A stretch of DNA of 64,000 nt. It comes from Alteromonas stellipolaris. GTDB lineage: Bacteria; Pseudomonadota; Gammaproteobacteria; Enterobacterales; Alteromonadaceae. The notes below the pieces were generated by a model, which saw only the letters and a program-made list of their open reading frames with translations, was not told where the DNA came from and did not search any database. This document shows, one piece after another, positions 34,472 to 43,567 of this stretch (the first letter of the stretch is position 1; each line of letters starts with the position of its first letter). The stretch is taken from NCBI RefSeq assembly GCF_001562115.1, contig NZ_CP013926.1:2666001-2730000 (forward strand), in the 5' to 3' direction. The position numbers and the translations under genes were made by a program.

Positions 34472-35803
34472 GTGTTAACTGTTTTACTTGTAGATGATGA
34501 TGCCGAGTTTACCGAGGTGGCCTGCACTATTATTGAGTTTCTCGGCCACGAAGTTCTAACTGCTGCCACATTAGGTGAAGCGCGAGACTGGTTAAAGAAA
34601 GAAACTTTCGACCATGTATTACTTGATTTCATGTTGCCAGATGGCAGCGGTGCACACTTGTTCGATGAACTTAACGCACTTCCCAAACGTCCACGCATTA
34701 CCCTTATTACCGGACACCCATCGGTAAAAGGCGTCATTAAAGGTTTATGCGGCCCCAATATTGATTACCTTGTTAAGCCTATTCAACGTGAAGACATTGA
34801 AGCAGTATTAACGGGGAAACCTAAAGTTGCTGAAGATACCAGCGAAAAAATCGAAAAGCATTTCGACTTGCTTATTGGTGAATCTGCGCCAATGAAAGAA
34901 CTCTACAAATTAATTGAGAGAGTAAGCAGAACAAGCGCAAACGTTATGCTACTTGGCGAAAGTGGTGTAGGTAAAGAGGTGGTTGCAGCCGCCATTCACC
35001 GCGCTTCAGAAAGTGAAGGCCCTTACGTAGTGACCAACTGCGGTGCCTTTTCAAAAGAATTGATTGGTAGTGAATTATTTGGCCACGAGAAAGGCGCATT
35101 TACAGGCGCAGTTGGACGTAAAGAAGGTGTTTTCGAACAAGCTGAAGGCGGATGTTTGTTCTTGGATGAAATCACTGAGATGCCTATCGACATGCAGCCA
35201 AACTTACTGCGCGTATTGGAAAACAAAGTGGTTATCCGTGTTGGCGGTACTAAAACTATCCCGGTCAATTGCCGCGTGGTGTCAGCGACCAACCGAACCA
35301 TGGAAGAAATAGCACAAAGCAAAGTGCTGCGTGAAGATATCTACTTCAGACTTGCGGTGTTTCCAATCACCATACCCACTTTGCGCGAACGCAAAGAAGA
35401 TATCCCTCTATTAGCAAAAACCTTTATTGAAGAATTTAATAAAGATAATGGCTCTAAATTTAGTTGGCAAGAAAGCCAGCTAAACACGTTACAAGCCTAC
35501 GATTGGCCAGGTAACGTACGTGAATTGCGCCACTTTGTTCATCGCGCCGCCATTATGAGCGATCCGACAAAACAGGTAATAGAGCTTCCTAAAACGATTG
35601 AATCGCCTTTTGCTAAAAAACAAAGTACAGCGCCAGCACTCCAAGCAGGACGTACTATTGAAGATGTTGAAAAGGAACTTATTTACGCAACGCTTGAGAA
35701 GGTTAATGGGAATAAAACCATGGCCGCTGAGATGCTTGGCATAAGTACCAAGACCCTATACAACCGACTTCACGCGTATGGCGATTTGGTCAAAGAAGAC
35801 TAG
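34472..35803 (+). CDS. Sigma-54-dependent response regulator (NtrC/AtoC type)
   Basis: 443 residues, GTG start with GGGAT upstream. Receiver domain 1-~120 (LLVDDDAEF; phosphoacceptor Asp52 in LLDFMLPDG; KP at ~100). AAA+ domain ~135-370 with Walker A GESGVGKE (~160), the sigma-54-contacting GAFTGA loop (~208-213), Walker B CLFLDEI, and sensor LREDIYFRLAVFPITIP. C-terminal Fis-type helix-turn-helix (NKTMAAEMLGISTKTLYNRLHAYG). Activates sigma-54 promoters when phosphorylated. It is followed 17 bases later by a DHp-only mini-protein and a histidine kinase, forming the front of a multi-gene signalling cluster. Confidence 0.95.
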   Translation: MLTVLLVDDDAEFTEVACTIIEFLGHEVLTAATLGEARDWLKKETFDHVLLDFMLPDGSGAHLFDELNALPKRPRITLITGHPSVKGVIKGLCGPNIDYLVKPIQREDIEAVLTGKPKVAEDTSEKIEKHFDLLIGESAPMKELYKLIERVSRTSANVMLLGESGVGKEVVAAAIHRASESEGPYVVTNCGAFSKELIGSELFGHEKGAFTGAVGRKEGVFEQAEGGCLFLDEITEMPIDMQPNLLRVLENKVVIRVGGTKTIPVNCRVVSATNRTMEEIAQSKVLREDIYFRLAVFPITIPTLRERKEDIPLLAKTFIEEFNKDNGSKFSWQESQLNTLQAYDWPGNVRELRHFVHRAAIMSDPTKQVIELPKTIESPFAKKQSTAPALQAGRTIEDVEKELIYATLEKVNGNKTMAAEMLGISTKTLYNRLHAYGDLVKED

Positions 35804-35820
35804 TAAGGCAGGAAAAAGTT

Positions 35821-36045
35821 ATGACTGAAGATGAGTTTGCCCGATTGAGCACCTATGTACACGATGCACGCAAACCGCTGAATCGCATTTCCATGCAAGC
35901 TGAATTGGTAAAAATGGCGCTTAATGGTGAAGTTCCCGCCCAAAAAGCGATGGCAGCATTGGATAAAATAATTTCCAGTGCTAAAGACTGCAGTGACTCC
36001 CTTTCTGAAATGACTTCAGATTTTGGCGACACATTATTGGATTGA
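35821..36045 (+). CDS. Stand-alone histidine-kinase DHp (HisKA-like) mini-protein
   Basis: 74 residues, ATG preceded by AGGAAAAAGTT. The segment YVHDARKPLNRISMQAELVKMAL is an H-box: compare SHELRTPLNxI..xxELL of HisKA domains; His14 would be the phosphoacceptor, followed by the usual [DE]xRxPL pattern. A second helix (AALDKIISSAKDCSDSLSEMTSDF) completes a DHp helical hairpin. There is no sensor and no HATPase domain, so it cannot phosphorylate itself. The stop TGA at 36043-36045 lies 4 bases before the ATG of the downstream CHASE3 kinase, suggesting translational coupling. It may act as a phosphotransfer shuttle, a decoy or a dimerisation partner; all inference. Not a fragment of the next gene, which has its own H-box. 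Confidence 0.75.
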   Translation: MTEDEFARLSTYVHDARKPLNRISMQAELVKMALNGEVPAQKAMAALDKIISSAKDCSDSLSEMTSDFGDTLLD

Positions 36046-36049
36046 TGTA

Positions 36050-37564
36050 ATGCTAAACAAAGTTTTGTCTTCGCTATACAGCTGGGTAATCATGGTGGTA
36101 TTCGTGATTGCTATTATTACTGCGAATTCATTTTATGTGGTGCAAACCCTTGATGACTTATCAGCCCTAGAAGCGCGCTTGTTTACCACCAGTCGCGTAA
36201 TAAGTGCGGTAAACAAATTGCACGTGGCCGTTTTGCGCGCCGAATCAGGTCAGCGTGGTTTCCTTCTTACTGAAGATGAAGCTTATTTGGAGGAGTACAC
36301 ACAAACGCTGAATAACTTCACGGCCCTTGCAGATGAAGTTGAAGTGAGTGCTTTGGCGTCTGATTTGCCGGAACAATCAGAACGGATTGAAAAGCTACTC
36401 GCCCTTACTCGCGTTAAAATTAACGGTATGGTGCGAATTGTAGAGCTAGTAAGAGTAGGTGATTTAGAGCAAGCCTTTACATTACTTGAAAGCGATAAGG
36501 GCCTTGATTTATACAACGACTTCGAGAATATGTTCGAACGCATCGATTCCTCTGAAAGGGATATTCAAGGTACGCACTTAGCCAGTTTGATGAAGCTAAG
36601 ACGTGACTCAGTGAATACATTATTAATTTCTTCAGGTACCACCCTATTTCTCATTATCTCAATTTTCTTGTTGTTAAAGGCCAACATTCGAGAAAATGAA
36701 AAACATAAAGATATCCTGGTTGATGTGAACGAAGATTTGGAGCATAAAATTTCAGAGCGAACCCAGGAGCTCCGTATATATTCAGATGAGTTGGCCCGCA
36801 GCAACCGAGAACTTGAGGACTTTGCTTTTGTGGCGTCTCACGACCTGCAAGAGCCTCTACGAAAAATTCGAGCTTTTGGTAACCGGTTAGATTCTGGCTA
36901 TAGAGATGTTATGGATGAACGAGGACAAGATTTTCTTGCACGTATGCTGAATGCGGCAGAACGGATGTCTATGTTGATTTCTGACCTGTTGTCTTTTTCT
37001 CGCGTTTCTACACGAGGTAAAGACTTTGAGCAAGTGAATGTCGGTGATGTCATCGATGGTGTGCTGGGTGATTTAGAAATAGCCATTGAGGAAAAAGGTG
37101 CCAATGTTATTGTGCAAGACATTCCGACTATTCGCGCAGACAAATCACAAATTGATCAGCTGTTTCTGAACTTGCTGTCAAATGCGCTAAAATTTCAAAC
37201 CGCCGACAAAGCTCCCCTTATTGAAATTACGGCGACACCACCAAGTGAAACTGATATGAAGGACATATTGTTAGCTGACGAGTATGACTGGATTAAAATC
37301 CAAATCTCAGACAACGGTATTGGCTTTGAACAGAGTTTTGCAGAAAAGATTTTTGCCCCGTTCCAACGCTTGCACGGACGAAGCGAATACAAAGGAACAG
37401 GGATTGGCCTAGCGGTATGCCGACGCATTGTTGAACGCCACAATGGTCAAATTTCGGCAAAAAGTTCGCCAGGAGAAGGTGCAACCTTTACTATCCTTCT
37501 GCCAATAAACAGCGAGCCTTTTGGCTCTCTAAATAATAATGGAGATACCACACATGACGCGTAA
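36050..37564 (+). CDS. CHASE3 sensor histidine kinase, phytochrome/Cph1-type core
   Basis: 504 residues from ATG 36050; an in-frame TTG at 36023 would overlap the upstream gene and lacks support. Membrane helix ~10-32, then a periplasmic CHASE3 domain (AVLRAESGQRGFLLTEDEAYLEEYTQTL), second helix ~185-207, coiled-coil linker (ISERTQELRIYSDELARSNRELEDFAFVA), H-box SHDLQEPLRKIRAFG with His ~264, N-box FLNLLSNALKFQ, G-boxes DNGIGFEQSFAEKIFAPFQRLHGRSEYKGTGIGLAVCRRIVERH. This DLQEPLRKI type is usual for kinases paired with Rcp1-like receivers, and one follows immediately. No transmitter-attached receiver. Ligand unknown. Confidence 0.93.
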   Translation: MLNKVLSSLYSWVIMVVFVIAIITANSFYVVQTLDDLSALEARLFTTSRVISAVNKLHVAVLRAESGQRGFLLTEDEAYLEEYTQTLNNFTALADEVEVSALASDLPEQSERIEKLLALTRVKINGMVRIVELVRVGDLEQAFTLLESDKGLDLYNDFENMFERIDSSERDIQGTHLASLMKLRRDSVNTLLISSGTTLFLIISIFLLLKANIRENEKHKDILVDVNEDLEHKISERTQELRIYSDELARSNRELEDFAFVASHDLQEPLRKIRAFGNRLDSGYRDVMDERGQDFLARMLNAAERMSMLISDLLSFSRVSTRGKDFEQVNVGDVIDGVLGDLEIAIEEKGANVIVQDIPTIRADKSQIDQLFLNLLSNALKFQTADKAPLIEITATPPSETDMKDILLADEYDWIKIQISDNGIGFEQSFAEKIFAPFQRLHGRSEYKGTGIGLAVCRRIVERHNGQISAKSSPGEGATFTILLPINSEPFGSLNNNGDTTHDA

Positions 37565-38006
37565 ACAAACCCAACCTATTAATATCCTTATGGCAGATGA
37601 CGATGAGGACGATCGTCTATTAACCGTAGACGCACTAAAAGAAAGCCGTGTGTTAAACAACTTATTTTGTGTTGAAGATGGCGTGGAATTACTTGAATTT
37701 TTACGTCATGAAGGGAAATACACAGATGCCAGCAAATTTCCACGCCCTAGCTTAATTCTGTTAGACCTTAACATGCCACGTAAAGACGGCAGAGAAGCGC
37801 TGCAAGAATTGAAAACCGACCCTAAATTACGTGGGATCCCAGTAGTCATCCTTACTACGTCCAAAGAAGAAGAAGACATGCTTCGAGGATACGATTTAGG
37901 CTGTGCTTCCTATATCACCAAACCTGTGAATTTCGAGGGACTAGTCGAGCTTATGCGCGCGCTAGGTCGCTACTGGATTGAGTTTGTAGAATTGCCACAC
38001 GATTAA
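37554..38006 (+). CDS. Rcp1-like single-domain response regulator
   Basis: 150 residues from ATG 37554 with GGAGAT upstream; the gene overlaps the kinase gene by 11 bases. Receiver fold: ILMADDDEDDRLLTVDALKES, phosphoacceptor Asp ~71 in LILLDLNMPRKDGREAL, TTSKEEEDM and the conserved Lys in ITKPVNFEGL. The NMPRKDGREAL and YW(I/L) C-terminal pattern belong to the Rcp1 group that accepts phosphate from phytochrome-type kinases. No output domain, so the signal must pass on by protein contact or phosphorelay. Coupling to the CHASE3 kinase is evident from the overlap. Confidence 0.95.
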   Translation: MTRKQTQPINILMADDDEDDRLLTVDALKESRVLNNLFCVEDGVELLEFLRHEGKYTDASKFPRPSLILLDLNMPRKDGREALQELKTDPKLRGIPVVILTTSKEEEDMLRGYDLGCASYITKPVNFEGLVELMRALGRYWIEFVELPHD

Positions 38007-38163
38007 TTGAATCATATAAATTCGATTTAAGCTGATGTGAGTCACTATTTTTGGCTCGTTAAGTTTTTACTCATGCCGTACGGCGCTAGCCATTAGTGCC
38101 GCTATGTTTTAAAGCGCTGGTTATTTAGCGCTACATTACGACCAATGTTTTATGGAGCGCACA

Positions 38164-40149
38164 GTGACCGAAGTTATCCGGGTTTTACTGATTGAAGATG
38201 ACGAAGATGATTATTTTTTAACATCAGATTATTTACTTCAATGTGAAGAACCCCGTTTCCAGCTTACCTGGGTAACCAACAGTGCTGACGCCATAGACGC
38301 GTTACAGCGTCGTAATTTCGATTTGTGTCTGCTCGACTATCTACTTGGCGCAGAAAACGCAGTAGATGTATTAGAAGTGCTTAAATCTAATCAGTTCAAC
38401 CTTCCTGTTGTTATTCTAACTGGTCAGTCAGACTCTCAAGTTGACGAATTAGTAATGCGAGCAGGTGCAGCCGATTACCTGCAAAAAACAGAAATTGAGT
38501 CGCCACGTTTCATGCGAACCATCCGCTACGCCATGGTTCGACGAGAGATAGAAAACGAACGATTAGAAAGGCATAAAGTTGAACAACAAAATAAAGCGAA
38601 AGATAAGTTTTTGGCTCACTTAGGCCACGAACTTCGTACTCCGCTTACATCAATTTTAGGTTACACAGAGCTGCTATTAGACGACAAAGGTAACGACCCT
38701 TTGGCCCAAGAACTTTCTATTATTTATTCTAATGGGAAGCACTTGCTTAGCCTGTTAAACGACCTTCTTGATATGTCTCGCATTATGGCGGACAAACTTG
38801 AACTTAATATTAAAGAGGTGCATTTAAGCCCTTTCCTTACTGATATCCACTCATTAATGCGATTAGCAGCGAAAGACAAAGATCTTGTTTTCGATGTGAT
38901 TGCAGAGACCAAGATACCGGAAATAATTGAAACCGACCCTACCCGTTTGCGTCAGGTATTAATTAACTTAGTCAGTAACGCTGTGAAATTTACCGATACT
39001 GGTACCATTACCGTCACCGTTGAAGTTCGTCCACCAGCGCCGGGGAAAACGAACGAAAGGTTACACTTCATTGTTGAAGATACTGGCATTGGCATGCCCC
39101 CCGATAAGCTAGAAAAAATCTTTCAGCCTTTCGAGCAAATCGAAGATATCATGCGTGCAAATCATGGCGGTGCTGGATTAGGCTTAGCAATTAGCCGTGA
39201 ACTGGTGGCTAAGCTAGGCGGAAGCATTAGTGTAGATTCCGTTTTTGGAAAAGGTAGTCGCTTTTCGTTTTCCATCGATCCCGGTGATATTAGCGAGCAA
39301 AGTCGTGCTCATCTTGCGCTTAAGGCTCCGAGCAGAGCTGAGGCCAATGATTTAGATTTACAAGTTACTGGCAAAGTGTTGATTGTTGATGATATCCGCG
39401 AGATTCGCCGCTTAACCGGGCATTTAGTTAGTCAATGTCACGCTACTGTAGCTTATGCTGAAAACGGGGTTAAAGCGTTAGAGGCAGTATTACAAGCCGA
39501 AGAAGATAACGACCCCTTTCATTTAGTGTTAATGGATATCCATATGCCAGTAATGAATGGAATTGAAGCCCTACATGCAATAAGACGGCACAATAGCAAC
39601 GTACCTGTTGTGGCCGTCACAGCCGCTAGCCGAAAAGGATTAAAACAGTCTTTAATGGATGACGGATTTAATAATGTTATTGGCAAACCTATTGAACGAG
39701 CAGCGCTGACTGAAGTGCTCGACCAATATTTGGTTCGCTCTCAAGGTCCAGCCGTGTCGAAGATAGAAAGCGTTAAAACAGTGACACAAAGTACTCAACC
39801 TCAACCGACGTCTAAAAAAGTGTTAGTGATAGAAGACGACGAGGATGCAGCAGAGTTGTTGCAATTATTCTTGGTTCATCAAGGCCATGATGTCATTACG
39901 GCAAATACGGGCGCGGATGCTATAGAGCGTATGAACGAAGTGGTATTTGACCATGTCTTGATGGATTTAACCCTTCCCGACTACCATGGATATGACTTAG
40001 CTGCCGAGTTGAATCAAATTCAACCCAAGGCGAAGTTGGTTATTGTGAGTGGCAACGAGCCAGATAAAGATACTATGAAGCATTTAGGTGTGAGTCAGTC
40101 ACTTCTAAAGCCTGTTAGTAAAGAAGATTTAATTAGTGTGGTGTCTTAA
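38164..40149 (+). CDS. Hybrid histidine kinase REC-HisKA-HATPase-REC-REC
   Basis: 661 residues from a GTG at 38164, chosen because GGAG sits 6 bases before it; an in-frame ATG at 38152 has no ribosome binding site. Domains: REC1 (~6-120; IEDDEDDYFL, Asp in LCLLDYLLG), DHp with HLGHELRTPLTSILGYTELL (His ~155), HATPase (NLVSNAVKFT, VEDTGIGMPPDKLEKIFQPFEQ, GGAGLGLAISRELVAKLGG; ends ~380), REC2 (~400-520; VDDIREI, LVLMDIHMPVMNG) and REC3 (~545-660; IEDDEDAAEL, HVLMDLTLPDYHG). No membrane helix, so it is cytoplasmic. With three receivers it can integrate several phosphate inputs. Separated by ~157 bases from the Rcp1-like gene, so co-transcription is likely but unproven. Confidence 0.94.
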   Translation: MTEVIRVLLIEDDEDDYFLTSDYLLQCEEPRFQLTWVTNSADAIDALQRRNFDLCLLDYLLGAENAVDVLEVLKSNQFNLPVVILTGQSDSQVDELVMRAGAADYLQKTEIESPRFMRTIRYAMVRREIENERLERHKVEQQNKAKDKFLAHLGHELRTPLTSILGYTELLLDDKGNDPLAQELSIIYSNGKHLLSLLNDLLDMSRIMADKLELNIKEVHLSPFLTDIHSLMRLAAKDKDLVFDVIAETKIPEIIETDPTRLRQVLINLVSNAVKFTDTGTITVTVEVRPPAPGKTNERLHFIVEDTGIGMPPDKLEKIFQPFEQIEDIMRANHGGAGLGLAISRELVAKLGGSISVDSVFGKGSRFSFSIDPGDISEQSRAHLALKAPSRAEANDLDLQVTGKVLIVDDIREIRRLTGHLVSQCHATVAYAENGVKALEAVLQAEEDNDPFHLVLMDIHMPVMNGIEALHAIRRHNSNVPVVAVTAASRKGLKQSLMDDGFNNVIGKPIERAALTEVLDQYLVRSQGPAVSKIESVKTVTQSTQPQPTSKKVLVIEDDEDAAELLQLFLVHQGHDVITANTGADAIERMNEVVFDHVLMDLTLPDYHGYDLAAELNQIQPKAKLVIVSGNEPDKDTMKHLGVSQSLLKPVSKEDLISVVS

Positions 40150-40193: not shown

Positions 40194-40404
40194 TTTCCCT
40201 CCGCGTTATTTGTTAGATGCTCACCGATTACGAAATTATTACACGGCCTACCTTGCAACTCTTACGTTAAATTGAACTTTAGAAGAACTCTTAAAACTCA
40301 AAATCAAATAAAACACTTTAAAAACAATAACTTAAATAATTATAAATATTGGTACAAGCGTTGCAACTCTCTATGTGCAATCTAGCAAACTTAAGGAGAG
40401 TACT

Positions 40405-40722
40405 ATGGCGACACAAACTACTACGCCTAAAACAGCGAAAGTGAATAGCGTAACTGAGCCTAGTCACCCAGTCACGGATCAGTTAAAAGAAACACTTCAT
40501 TCGTCAGTTGATAAACTGGCTGATAGTGCGGCCGTAGCTGAGGACAATATTCGTAACACGGCAAGCCGCTCTGCGGACAACATGTCTGAACGAAAACGTT
40601 TAGCTGAGCAAAAATGGCAGGCCTCTGGCGTACGTAAGTACGCTATCGAGAATCCATTGGCAACTGCTGGTATGGCCTTCGCAGCAGGTATGTTAGTTAC
40701 TTCATTATTTCGCAAGAAATAA
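40405..40722 (+). CDS. DUF883/ElaB-YqjD family inner-membrane-tail protein
   Basis: 105 residues from ATG 40405 with AAGGAG upstream; the preceding in-frame GTG has none. Helical, charged N-terminal region (VTDQLKETLHSSVDKLADSAAVAEDNIRNTASRSADNMSERKRLAEQKW) and a C-terminal membrane anchor (NPLATAGMAFAAGMLVTSLFRKK) as in YqjD/ElaB, which tether to the inner membrane by a tail and, in E. coli, associate with ribosomes in stationary phase. Followed by a YqjE-like gene 3 bases after its stop, the same order as E. coli yqjD-yqjE. A stress role is inferred. Confidence 0.86.
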   Translation: MATQTTTPKTAKVNSVTEPSHPVTDQLKETLHSSVDKLADSAAVAEDNIRNTASRSADNMSERKRLAEQKWQASGVRKYAIENPLATAGMAFAAGMLVTSLFRKK

Positions 40723-42875: not shown

Positions 42876-43131
42876 TTCGCGCCCTTTAGAATAACGAGAG
42901 TTAAAAAGTGATAGTAGCATCTGCAAATCGTGAATGCTTCTTTGCTTCCTACCCGCCTCGGCCATGTAAAAAGTGCAAATGCTCTGTAAACCTTGTTTAC
43001 CCTACGAAGAATTCATTAGTAAAAAGTAGCGCAAGATAAGATTAAAATCATTTAAATCAGAAGCTTACCATTTAGGCACGGAGTTCGCATTAGTATCTAT
43101 GTCAGTAACGGAGCAAAAAGAGGATTTAGCT

Positions 43132-43308
43132 ATGTTAGGTTGGGCAATTACTTTTTTCATTATCGCCATTATTGCAGCAGTTTTTGGTTTTGGCGGCATC
43201 GCAGGTGCAGCAACAGGTATCGCACAATTTTTATTCTTTGTGTTCATCGCCTTACTAGTCATTTCACTAGTCGCGAATGCCTTACGCGGTCGGTCACCAC
43301 GAGCATAA
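43132..43308 (+). CDS. YtjA family (DUF1328) small membrane protein
   Basis: 58 residues from ATG 43132 with GAGG upstream (an earlier ATG at 43099 gives a longer charged head not found in the family). [47 protein letters not shown] closely matches E. coli YtjA ([47 protein letters not shown]): two short membrane helices around FGFGGIAG. YtjA-type peptides are stress associated and of unknown mechanism. Followed by a small lipoprotein gene. Confidence 0.88.
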
Positions 43309-43372
43309 ATTTATTACGCTTTTAGATATTTTCAATATCTTTAAGATACTTTTAGGAAACAGGAGAACGGAC

Positions 43373-43567
43373 ATGATCTCACAGAAATCATTATTGAAAC
43401 TTTTAGCAGCTGGTACATTCGCACTAACACTTGCCGCATGCGGTGACGGTGAAGCAGAAAACGCTGGTGAAGAGCTAGACGAAATTGTAACAGACGCAGG
43501 CAACGCAGTAGAAGATGCTTGTGAAGATGTTAAAGAAGGCGCAAACGCCGAAGATAAAGACTGTTAA
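43373..43567 (+). CDS. Small acidic lipoprotein
   Basis: 64 residues from ATG 43373 with CAGGAG ideally spaced. Signal peptide with lipobox LAAC (Cys22); the mature part is ~43 residues and very acidic: GDGEAENAGEELDEIVTDAGNAVEDACEDVKEGANAEDKDC, with two further cysteines (in EDACED and at the C-terminus) that could be disulfide bonded. It recalls entericidin-like small lipoproteins in layout only. Function unknown. Followed by a strong terminator shared with the convergent 71-residue gene. Confidence 0.82.
   Translation: MISQKSLLKLLAAGTFALTLAACGDGEAENAGEELDEIVTDAGNAVEDACEDVKEGANAEDKDC

Follow-up and report, generated by a model that had tools for sequence, protein, structure and literature searches.

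A free-standing DHp protein encoded between a sigma-54 regulator and a CHASE3 kinase in Alteromonas stellipolaris, and its proposed role as a phosphotransfer intermediate

The gene at positions 35821..36045 (+ strand) of the window, by which we mean the whole stretch of 64,000 nucleotides of Alteromonas stellipolaris DNA that was analysed, encodes a free-standing DHp protein (HisKA-type hairpin) of 74 residues. We consider it rather likely that this protein is a minimal histidine phosphotransferase, in which His14 would carry the phosphoryl group between receivers and on to the sigma-54-dependent response regulator encoded beside it. What was computed in favour of this role is the fold prediction, the conserved histidine, the free-standing state, the gene order, the lack of an Hpt match in the cassette and a promoter downstream of it. 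The literature searched contained no account of such a lone DHp protein.

Results

The open reading frame runs from an ATG start to a TGA stop and translates into 74 amino acids. A ribosome-binding-site-like AGGA (35810..35813, +) is located 7 nt 5' of the ATG, a gap of 17 bases separates the ATG from the stop codon of the sigma-54 regulator (35803), and 4 bases (36046-36049) lie between the TGA and the ATG (36050) of the CHASE3 kinase. An earlier note on this DNA had described a 74-residue free-standing DHp protein between a sigma-54 regulator and a CHASE3 kinase, with its own ribosome binding site and with a stop codon 4 bases before the kinase, and this is borne out by the open reading frame, the Pfam assignments and the neighbouring genes. 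Residue 14, found within VHDARKPLNRISMQAELV and encoded by the CAC codon at 35860..35862 (+), is a histidine and is the residue that we propose to be phosphorylated.

When the protein was searched against Pfam, HisKA (PF00512) matched residues 9-67 with E=4.3e-5 and 23.9 bits, below the curated cut-off of 26.9, and the sole further row at E<=1 was ThrE (E=0.074). No ATPase (HATPase), sensor or Hpt row was obtained for the 74 aa at E<=1, in agreement with the earlier reading of a protein with neither a catalytic ATPase domain nor a sensor. Among its relatives (loci are numbered L, genomes G and proteins P), L050:7116-7307 scores 32.4 bits with PF00512, above the curated 26.9, and L063:5702-5920 has no PF00512 match at E<=0.01; precomputed PF00512 assignments are found on many, not all, of the DHp relatives listed. 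The genome of A. stellipolaris contains 50 HisKA matches, of which the DHp protein is the sole one in a frame shorter than 250 aa (the next shortest frame has 259 aa), and a search of the same genome with the Hpt model (PF01627) gave 10 places at E<=0.01, none of them at the DHp gene.

The structure of the protein, modelled as a single chain, is a two-helix hairpin (H3-34/H40-73) with a pLDDT of 92.8. Together with the translation, the model confirms the H-box with His14 and the second helix that had been noted before, and it is DHp-like, with no different fold predicted. The best 50 Foldseek rows include the DHp domains of HK853, EnvZ, LvrB and ChpT at 22-29% identity, above that of the unrelated rows; nothing was found at E<=0.001, and many unrelated proteins match the two-helix hairpin equally well or better. 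The family profile gave no significant match in the PDB, with the best kinase row (E=0.67) placed after four unrelated rows. We infer that the protein probably forms a homodimer.

A protein search with the DHp sequence yielded 111 homologous small proteins of 42-95 aa at E<=0.01, and profile A1, built from 33 rows, yielded 426 small proteins at E<=0.01, the best 120 of which were listed; both searches admit proteins of similar length only, and the genome searches have no length limit. With the single sequence, DHp was found in 33 of the 36 genomes of the genus (the own genome included) at E<=0.001, and no match was obtained in 24 genomes of other families. A profile search of 394 genomes of the order gave 26 matches in 23 genomes at E<=1e-6, all 26 in stop-to-stop frames of 66-104 aa, three of the matched stretches crossing one stop. 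Named genomes were scanned with the peptide pattern IS[ML][HNQ]AEL[GIL]K, which partly forces residues 23-31, and 70 loci were found, 67 of them free-standing with 63-90 aa. The remaining three are L198 and L199, within frames of 330 and 444 aa (Planctomycetaceae), and L200 (uncultured), which has no resolved frame. Free-standing genes occur in Alteromonas, Pseudoalteromonas, Colwellia and relatives, Thalassotalea, Catenovulum, Rheinheimera, Arsukibacterium, Paraglaciecola, Glaciecola, Ningiella, Psychromonas and Motilimonas, and also in two Cellvibrionaceae. In a scan of 369 genomes of the class, meant to reach beyond the order, profile A2 matched in 7: two belong to the own genus (G000, G001), and in the other five, from other families, the frames have 364-1450 aa and resemble the cassette kinases by blastp. 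The scan with A2 was not exhaustive, since the two Cellvibrionaceae loci came solely from the named-genome scan.

For the DHp gene, the median pN/pS over 253 pairs of 23 own-genus sequences is 0.28, with medians of 0.31 and 0.30 for the two neighbouring kinases, 0.12 for the regulator and 0.11 for the single-receiver protein (Rcp); as the median pS is 0.84, with synonymous sites near saturation, these values are a rough sign of purifying selection only. The DHp protein is real and probably functional.

Two other origins of the gene were considered and rejected. A kinase fragment was rejected on the free-standing family and the low pN/pS; the relatives stand free and are not fused to a full kinase, so the frameshift fragment that the earlier note had allowed for was not found. 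A recent copy of the DHp domain of a neighbouring kinase was also rejected: within the A. stellipolaris genome, the closest match among the other DHp domains has E=0.79. Between P0001 and the CHASE3 kinase there is a 10-residue H-box match only (E=0.093), and with the hybrid kinase P0001 gave no H-box match.

The DHp gene is the second of a cassette of five genes. It follows the sigma-54-dependent response regulator (34472..35803, +; REC, AAA+ with GAFTGA, and HTH_8), the proposed final acceptor, and is followed by the CHASE3 sensor histidine kinase (36050..37564, +; CHASE3, HisKA and HATPase, with the H-box HDLQEPL), the Rcp (37539..38006, +), a single-receiver response regulator and the proposed phosphate donor to DHp, and a hybrid kinase REC-HisKA-HATPase-REC-REC (38152..40149, +), which has no Hpt match and is an alternative donor. 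The Rcp, which we take to be Rcp1-like from its position and length, is given here by its longest frame, with a 26-base overlap with the kinase, and its true start may be later. Besides DHp, no Hpt match and no free histidine donor were found in the cassette, and the hybrid has three receivers.

The five genes are found in this order in 38 of 40 fetched regions, a few frames being split, and the further neighbours vary among those 38. Across the named genomes, the survey of gene order that the earlier note had suggested gave regulator, DHp and CHASE3 kinase in succession in 64 of the 67 free-standing loci, with cassette regulators 56-92% identical to that of the window. The Rcp follows the kinase in 63 of these 64, 60 by frame and 3 by tblastn (L132, L170, L196); the exception is L181, where no Rcp was found on a contig 4,289 bases long. 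A small phosphotransfer-type gene is thus directly 3' of a sigma-54 regulator in 65 of 67 loci (the 64 cassettes and L131); the other two have REC-GGDEF regulators. In the receiver of the sigma-54 regulator, helix 1 varies somewhat less, with a mean entropy of 1.18 versus 1.63, 1.61, 1.34 and 1.31 in the other helices, a weak signal with helix limits set from the general receiver fold.

A strict sigma-54 (-24/-12) promoter match, TGGTACAAGCGTTGCA, is present at 40350..40365 (+), the only one in the window, with 39 nt between it and the probable start codon (ATG, 40405) of the gene that follows the hybrid. This gene (40405..40722, +; MATQTTTP...) is the probable target; its product has no Pfam match at E<=0.01 and presumably resembles the YqjD/ElaB-type tail-anchored proteins. 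The strict pattern, a form of the sigma-54 consensus in which Y is permitted at positions 4 and 6 and R at position 7, was fixed after the site at 40350 had been seen; it has 19 matches in the 571,147 bases of 40 regions, compared with a mean of 1.17 and a maximum of 4 for 60 permuted patterns. A match within 900 nt 3' of the hybrid was found in 18 of the 40 regions, that is in 18 of 22 from the own genus (window, L064-L085) and in 0 of 18 elsewhere, where the test is unfair to L050, L062 and L063 because a non-cassette hybrid was taken or there is no cassette. Scanned over their whole length, the 18 regions outside the genus contain one strict match, in L051, which is not 3' of the hybrid; evidence for the target is thus confined to the genus. 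The GAFTGA loop is the element that contacts sigma-54, and the combination of the promoter match with a GAFTGA regulator makes the operon after the cassette its likely output in the genus. Further downstream, the window encodes a DUF1328 protein (43099-43308) and a small acidic lipoprotein-like gene (43277-43567), relatives of the latter being located near the cassette in L051, L053, L056 (= L155), L059 (= L148) and L170; both genes are possible further targets.

Conservation was analysed over 131 proteins from both protein searches (the best 120 of 426 from the profile), 126 of which are readable at the motif and 5 start after it. The histidine of the HDARKPL-type motif is kept in 125 of the 126 and in 67 of the 67 free-standing named-genome loci, where its position is outside the search pattern, so that the homologues do retain the residue on which the earlier note had laid weight. 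P0056, on one contig of 552 bases, is the sole exception with Asp for His, possibly a sequencing error. Over 108 aligned rows (the window, the 40 fetched regions and the named-genome loci, with some genomes included twice), H14, R17, N21, I23, E28 and I50 have zero entropy and both ends are variable. I23 and E28, as well as M/L at 25 and N/Q/H at 26, are inside the search pattern and are in the named-genome loci conserved partly by construction; H14, R17, N21, H+4 and I50 are outside it.

The residue after the histidine is acidic (D/E) in 126 of 126 proteins and in 62 of 67 loci, and such a residue is described as needed for the kinase, not the phosphatase, activity of the HisKA kinases tested (PMC3510030). 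For phosphatase activity, the same source describes Thr or Asn at H+4 as required in the HisKA proteins tested (PMC3510030). K is the commonest residue at H+4, with 24 of the 67 loci, followed by A (20), G (13), N (5), S (3), T (1) and R (1); the 126 proteins have K (118), R (7) and T (1). Asn is found in L131 (a solitary pair of regulator and DHp), in L132 and L134 (Cellvibrionaceae, full cassettes) and in L137 and L152 (REC-GGDEF pairs), and from its replacement in the other 62 of the 67 we predict that the protein transfers phosphate but does not act as a phosphatase. Of the cassette kinases, the CHASE3 kinase (HDLQEPL) carries Glu at H+4, again without the Thr/Asn of HisKA phosphatases, and the hybrid kinase has Thr (HELRTPL). 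In a quick tree of 65 sigma-54 regulators and two outgroups (SH-aLRT, no bootstrap), the three rows with N at H+4 and a sigma-54 regulator split off before the other 62 (SH-aLRT 99), and one change between N and not-N suffices on this tree; a single change is likely, not proven, since the N rows have long branches. All 126 readable proteins carry N, M and Q/H/N at the DHp sites aligned to T250/L254/A255 of EnvZ, described as its specificity triad (PMC2991266).

The DHp gene is also found outside the cassette. In addition to its cassette, L050 (= L131) encodes another sigma-54 regulator (52%), which is paired with a separate DHp and has no kinase on the same strand; this pair (L050:5749-7307) is convergent with the main cassette. 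A REC-GGDEF regulator followed by a lone DHp is seen in L062:5966-7219, in L063:4667-5920 (= L152) and in L137, the assignment being by Pfam for L062 and L063 and by a 56% match to the L063 protein for L137; such pairs may give a c-di-GMP output that draws on the same relay. The main cassette is also present in each of the three G genomes that have a solitary pair, and the assembly of L137 has cassette L156. The occurrence of solitary pairs beside main cassettes suggests that DHp accompanies the output regulator and that the kinases may be shared.

None of the 18 genomes of the own genus or family in which the searches had found no DHp gave an orthologue-like regulator: the best matches are 35-53%, those of 50-53% are to AAA+ only, and those spanning receiver and AAA+ reach at most 41%. 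G595, from another order, has a sigma-54 response regulator (44%), a CHASE3 kinase, an Rcp and a hybrid together (L125:1850-9734), and no DHp was found there. Such kinases may thus reach such a regulator without DHp, and the alternatives are that DHp joined the cassette later, that another carrier is used in G595 or that the kinases reach the regulator directly. A 328-aa frame between regulator and kinase of G595 was considered as a full-length phosphotransferase and rejected, as it reads as a spurious frame; a 159-aa minus-strand gene adjoins the regulator in L125. In L128, a 199-aa gene 3' of a sigma-54 regulator was dismissed as unrelated to DHp by eye.

Discussion

We propose a relay in which the CHASE3 kinase would autophosphorylate and pass the phosphate to the adjacent Rcp, and/or the hybrid kinase would load its own receivers. 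His14 of DHp would take the phosphate from the Rcp or from a hybrid receiver and donate it to the sigma-54 regulator at Asp52; once phosphorylated, the regulator would activate sigma-54 promoters such as that at 40350. A hybrid kinase that ends in receivers passes its phosphate on via a histidine carrier, and the succession of histidine kinase, receiver, histidine and receiver is the logic of Spo0 and PhyT. The CHASE3 kinase might also phosphorylate DHp or the regulator directly.

Other roles are conceivable for a lone DHp hairpin. Since a kinase gene directly follows DHp in most loci, the two might work as a split kinase: the CHASE3 kinase, or the hybrid kinase, would use its ATPase domain to phosphorylate His14 in trans, and the phosphate would then go to the regulator, with no receiver between. 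The acidic residue linked to kinase activity is kept after the histidine in the 62 loci and 126 proteins given above, as this would demand, but it does not discriminate, since Spo0B also has an acidic residue directly after its histidine. The cassette kinases, moreover, have intact H-boxes of their own, and the solitary pairs of regulator and DHp have no adjacent cassette kinase, and we regard a split kinase as unlikely. We are similarly doubtful of a non-catalytic adapter or competitor, which would bind the receiver of the regulator or the DHp domain of a kinase, blocking or tethering it and carrying no phosphate. The protein is small, and PhyT of Sphingomonas is described as sequestering its regulator as well as transferring phosphate (PMC5898713), yet H14, R17, N21 and I50 are invariant in the 108 rows and a pure binder need not keep a phospho-histidine. 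The earlier note had left open whether the protein is a carrier or a competitor; we favour the carrier, and the competitor is less favoured because DHp also occurs with output regulators that have no adjacent kinase gene (L050/L131, L062, L063/L152, L137). New relative to that note are the conserved family, the retention of the five-gene cassette, the replacement at H+4 and the sigma-54 promoter downstream.

That DHp serves solely to dephosphorylate the sigma-54 regulator, or to drain phosphate from it, is in our judgement highly improbable: HisKA DHp domains can be phosphatases, and the N at H+4 in 5 of 67 loci (L131, L132, L134, L137, L152) would suit it, but the other 62 have K, A, G, S, R or T there, T in one only. 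We give almost no credence to the view that the gene is what remains of a decaying kinase or a piece of one cut off by a frameshift. Many DHp relatives are annotated 'hypothetical protein' or, misleadingly, 'histidine kinase', and the latter name would speak for it; the genes, however, are free-standing in several families with low pN/pS and with conserved histidine and length, and no recent source is at hand, given the E=0.79 of the nearest DHp in the own genome.

The minimal phosphotransferase that we favour suggests a wider picture, which we put forward tentatively: DHp may be the smallest natural kinase-derived phosphotransferase, a portable docking and relay piece, with the kinase-less pairs sharing a phosphate source and one loss at H+4 leading to a transfer-only protein. 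The main cassette would drive the sigma-54 regulator, and the duplicated kinase-less pairs would act on a further regulon or on c-di-GMP; a DHp that worked both ways would have become a relay for transfer alone when, once in the tree, it lost the phosphatase residue at H+4. A family without the catalytic part says what a kinase-derived phosphotransferase needs, ChpT, Spo0B and PhyT having been described as kinases whose catalytic part has degenerated, and it offers a piece of 63-90 residues in which to study receiver recognition. In common marine genera it also marks a candidate phosphorelay, complete and packed into five genes, for which a target promoter is predicted in the own genus. A known catalytic position varies naturally among its members, so that the question of kinase, phosphatase or transfer can be tested within one family.

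Several known systems can be compared with it. PDB 1joy (67 residues), which we take to be the isolated DHp domain of EnvZ, is similar in size and its H-box aligns with that of DHp (E=0.67, not significant), but it is a piece of a full kinase, whereas DHp is a natural lone-domain gene. In HK1/HK2-TcrA of Mycobacterium tuberculosis, the DHp is on one protein and the ATPase on the other, and this mechanism resembles the split kinase weighed above. The two kinase genes, Rv0601c and Rv0600c, are described as cooperating with one regulator, TcrA (PMC9274095). They differ from the present case in that the kinases beside DHp are complete, the organism is unrelated and the regulator is of another type.

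LuxO, of Vibrio quorum sensing, is sigma-54-dependent. LuxU resembles DHp in being a small phosphotransfer-type protein that is encoded beside a response regulator, and several kinases feed it (PMC4398556); in V. cholerae, all LuxO-activating inputs studied are described as running through LuxU (PMC4398556). However, LuxU is an Hpt protein (PMC4398556), whereas DHp is HisKA-type, with no Hpt match at E<=1.

Spo0B, ChpT and PhyT, histidine phosphotransferases derived from kinases, share with DHp the hairpin and the lack of autokinase activity; their phospho-histidine, to which His14 would correspond, carries phosphate between receivers, as we propose for DHp, whose output, unlike theirs, would be a sigma-54 regulator. 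Spo0B keeps a second domain. So does ChpT, which is described as a DHp protein that forms dimers and has no autokinase activity; its C-terminal domain is ATPase-like but degenerate (PMC3433190), whereas the DHp protein ends with the hairpin. PhyT and Spo0B are likewise described as degenerated kinases (PMC5898713), and the DHp protein differs from them in having no second domain. PhyT transfers phosphate from the single-domain SdrG to PhyR (PMC5898713), and this passage from SdrG to PhyT to PhyR parallels, step for step, the one proposed here from Rcp to DHp to the sigma-54 regulator.
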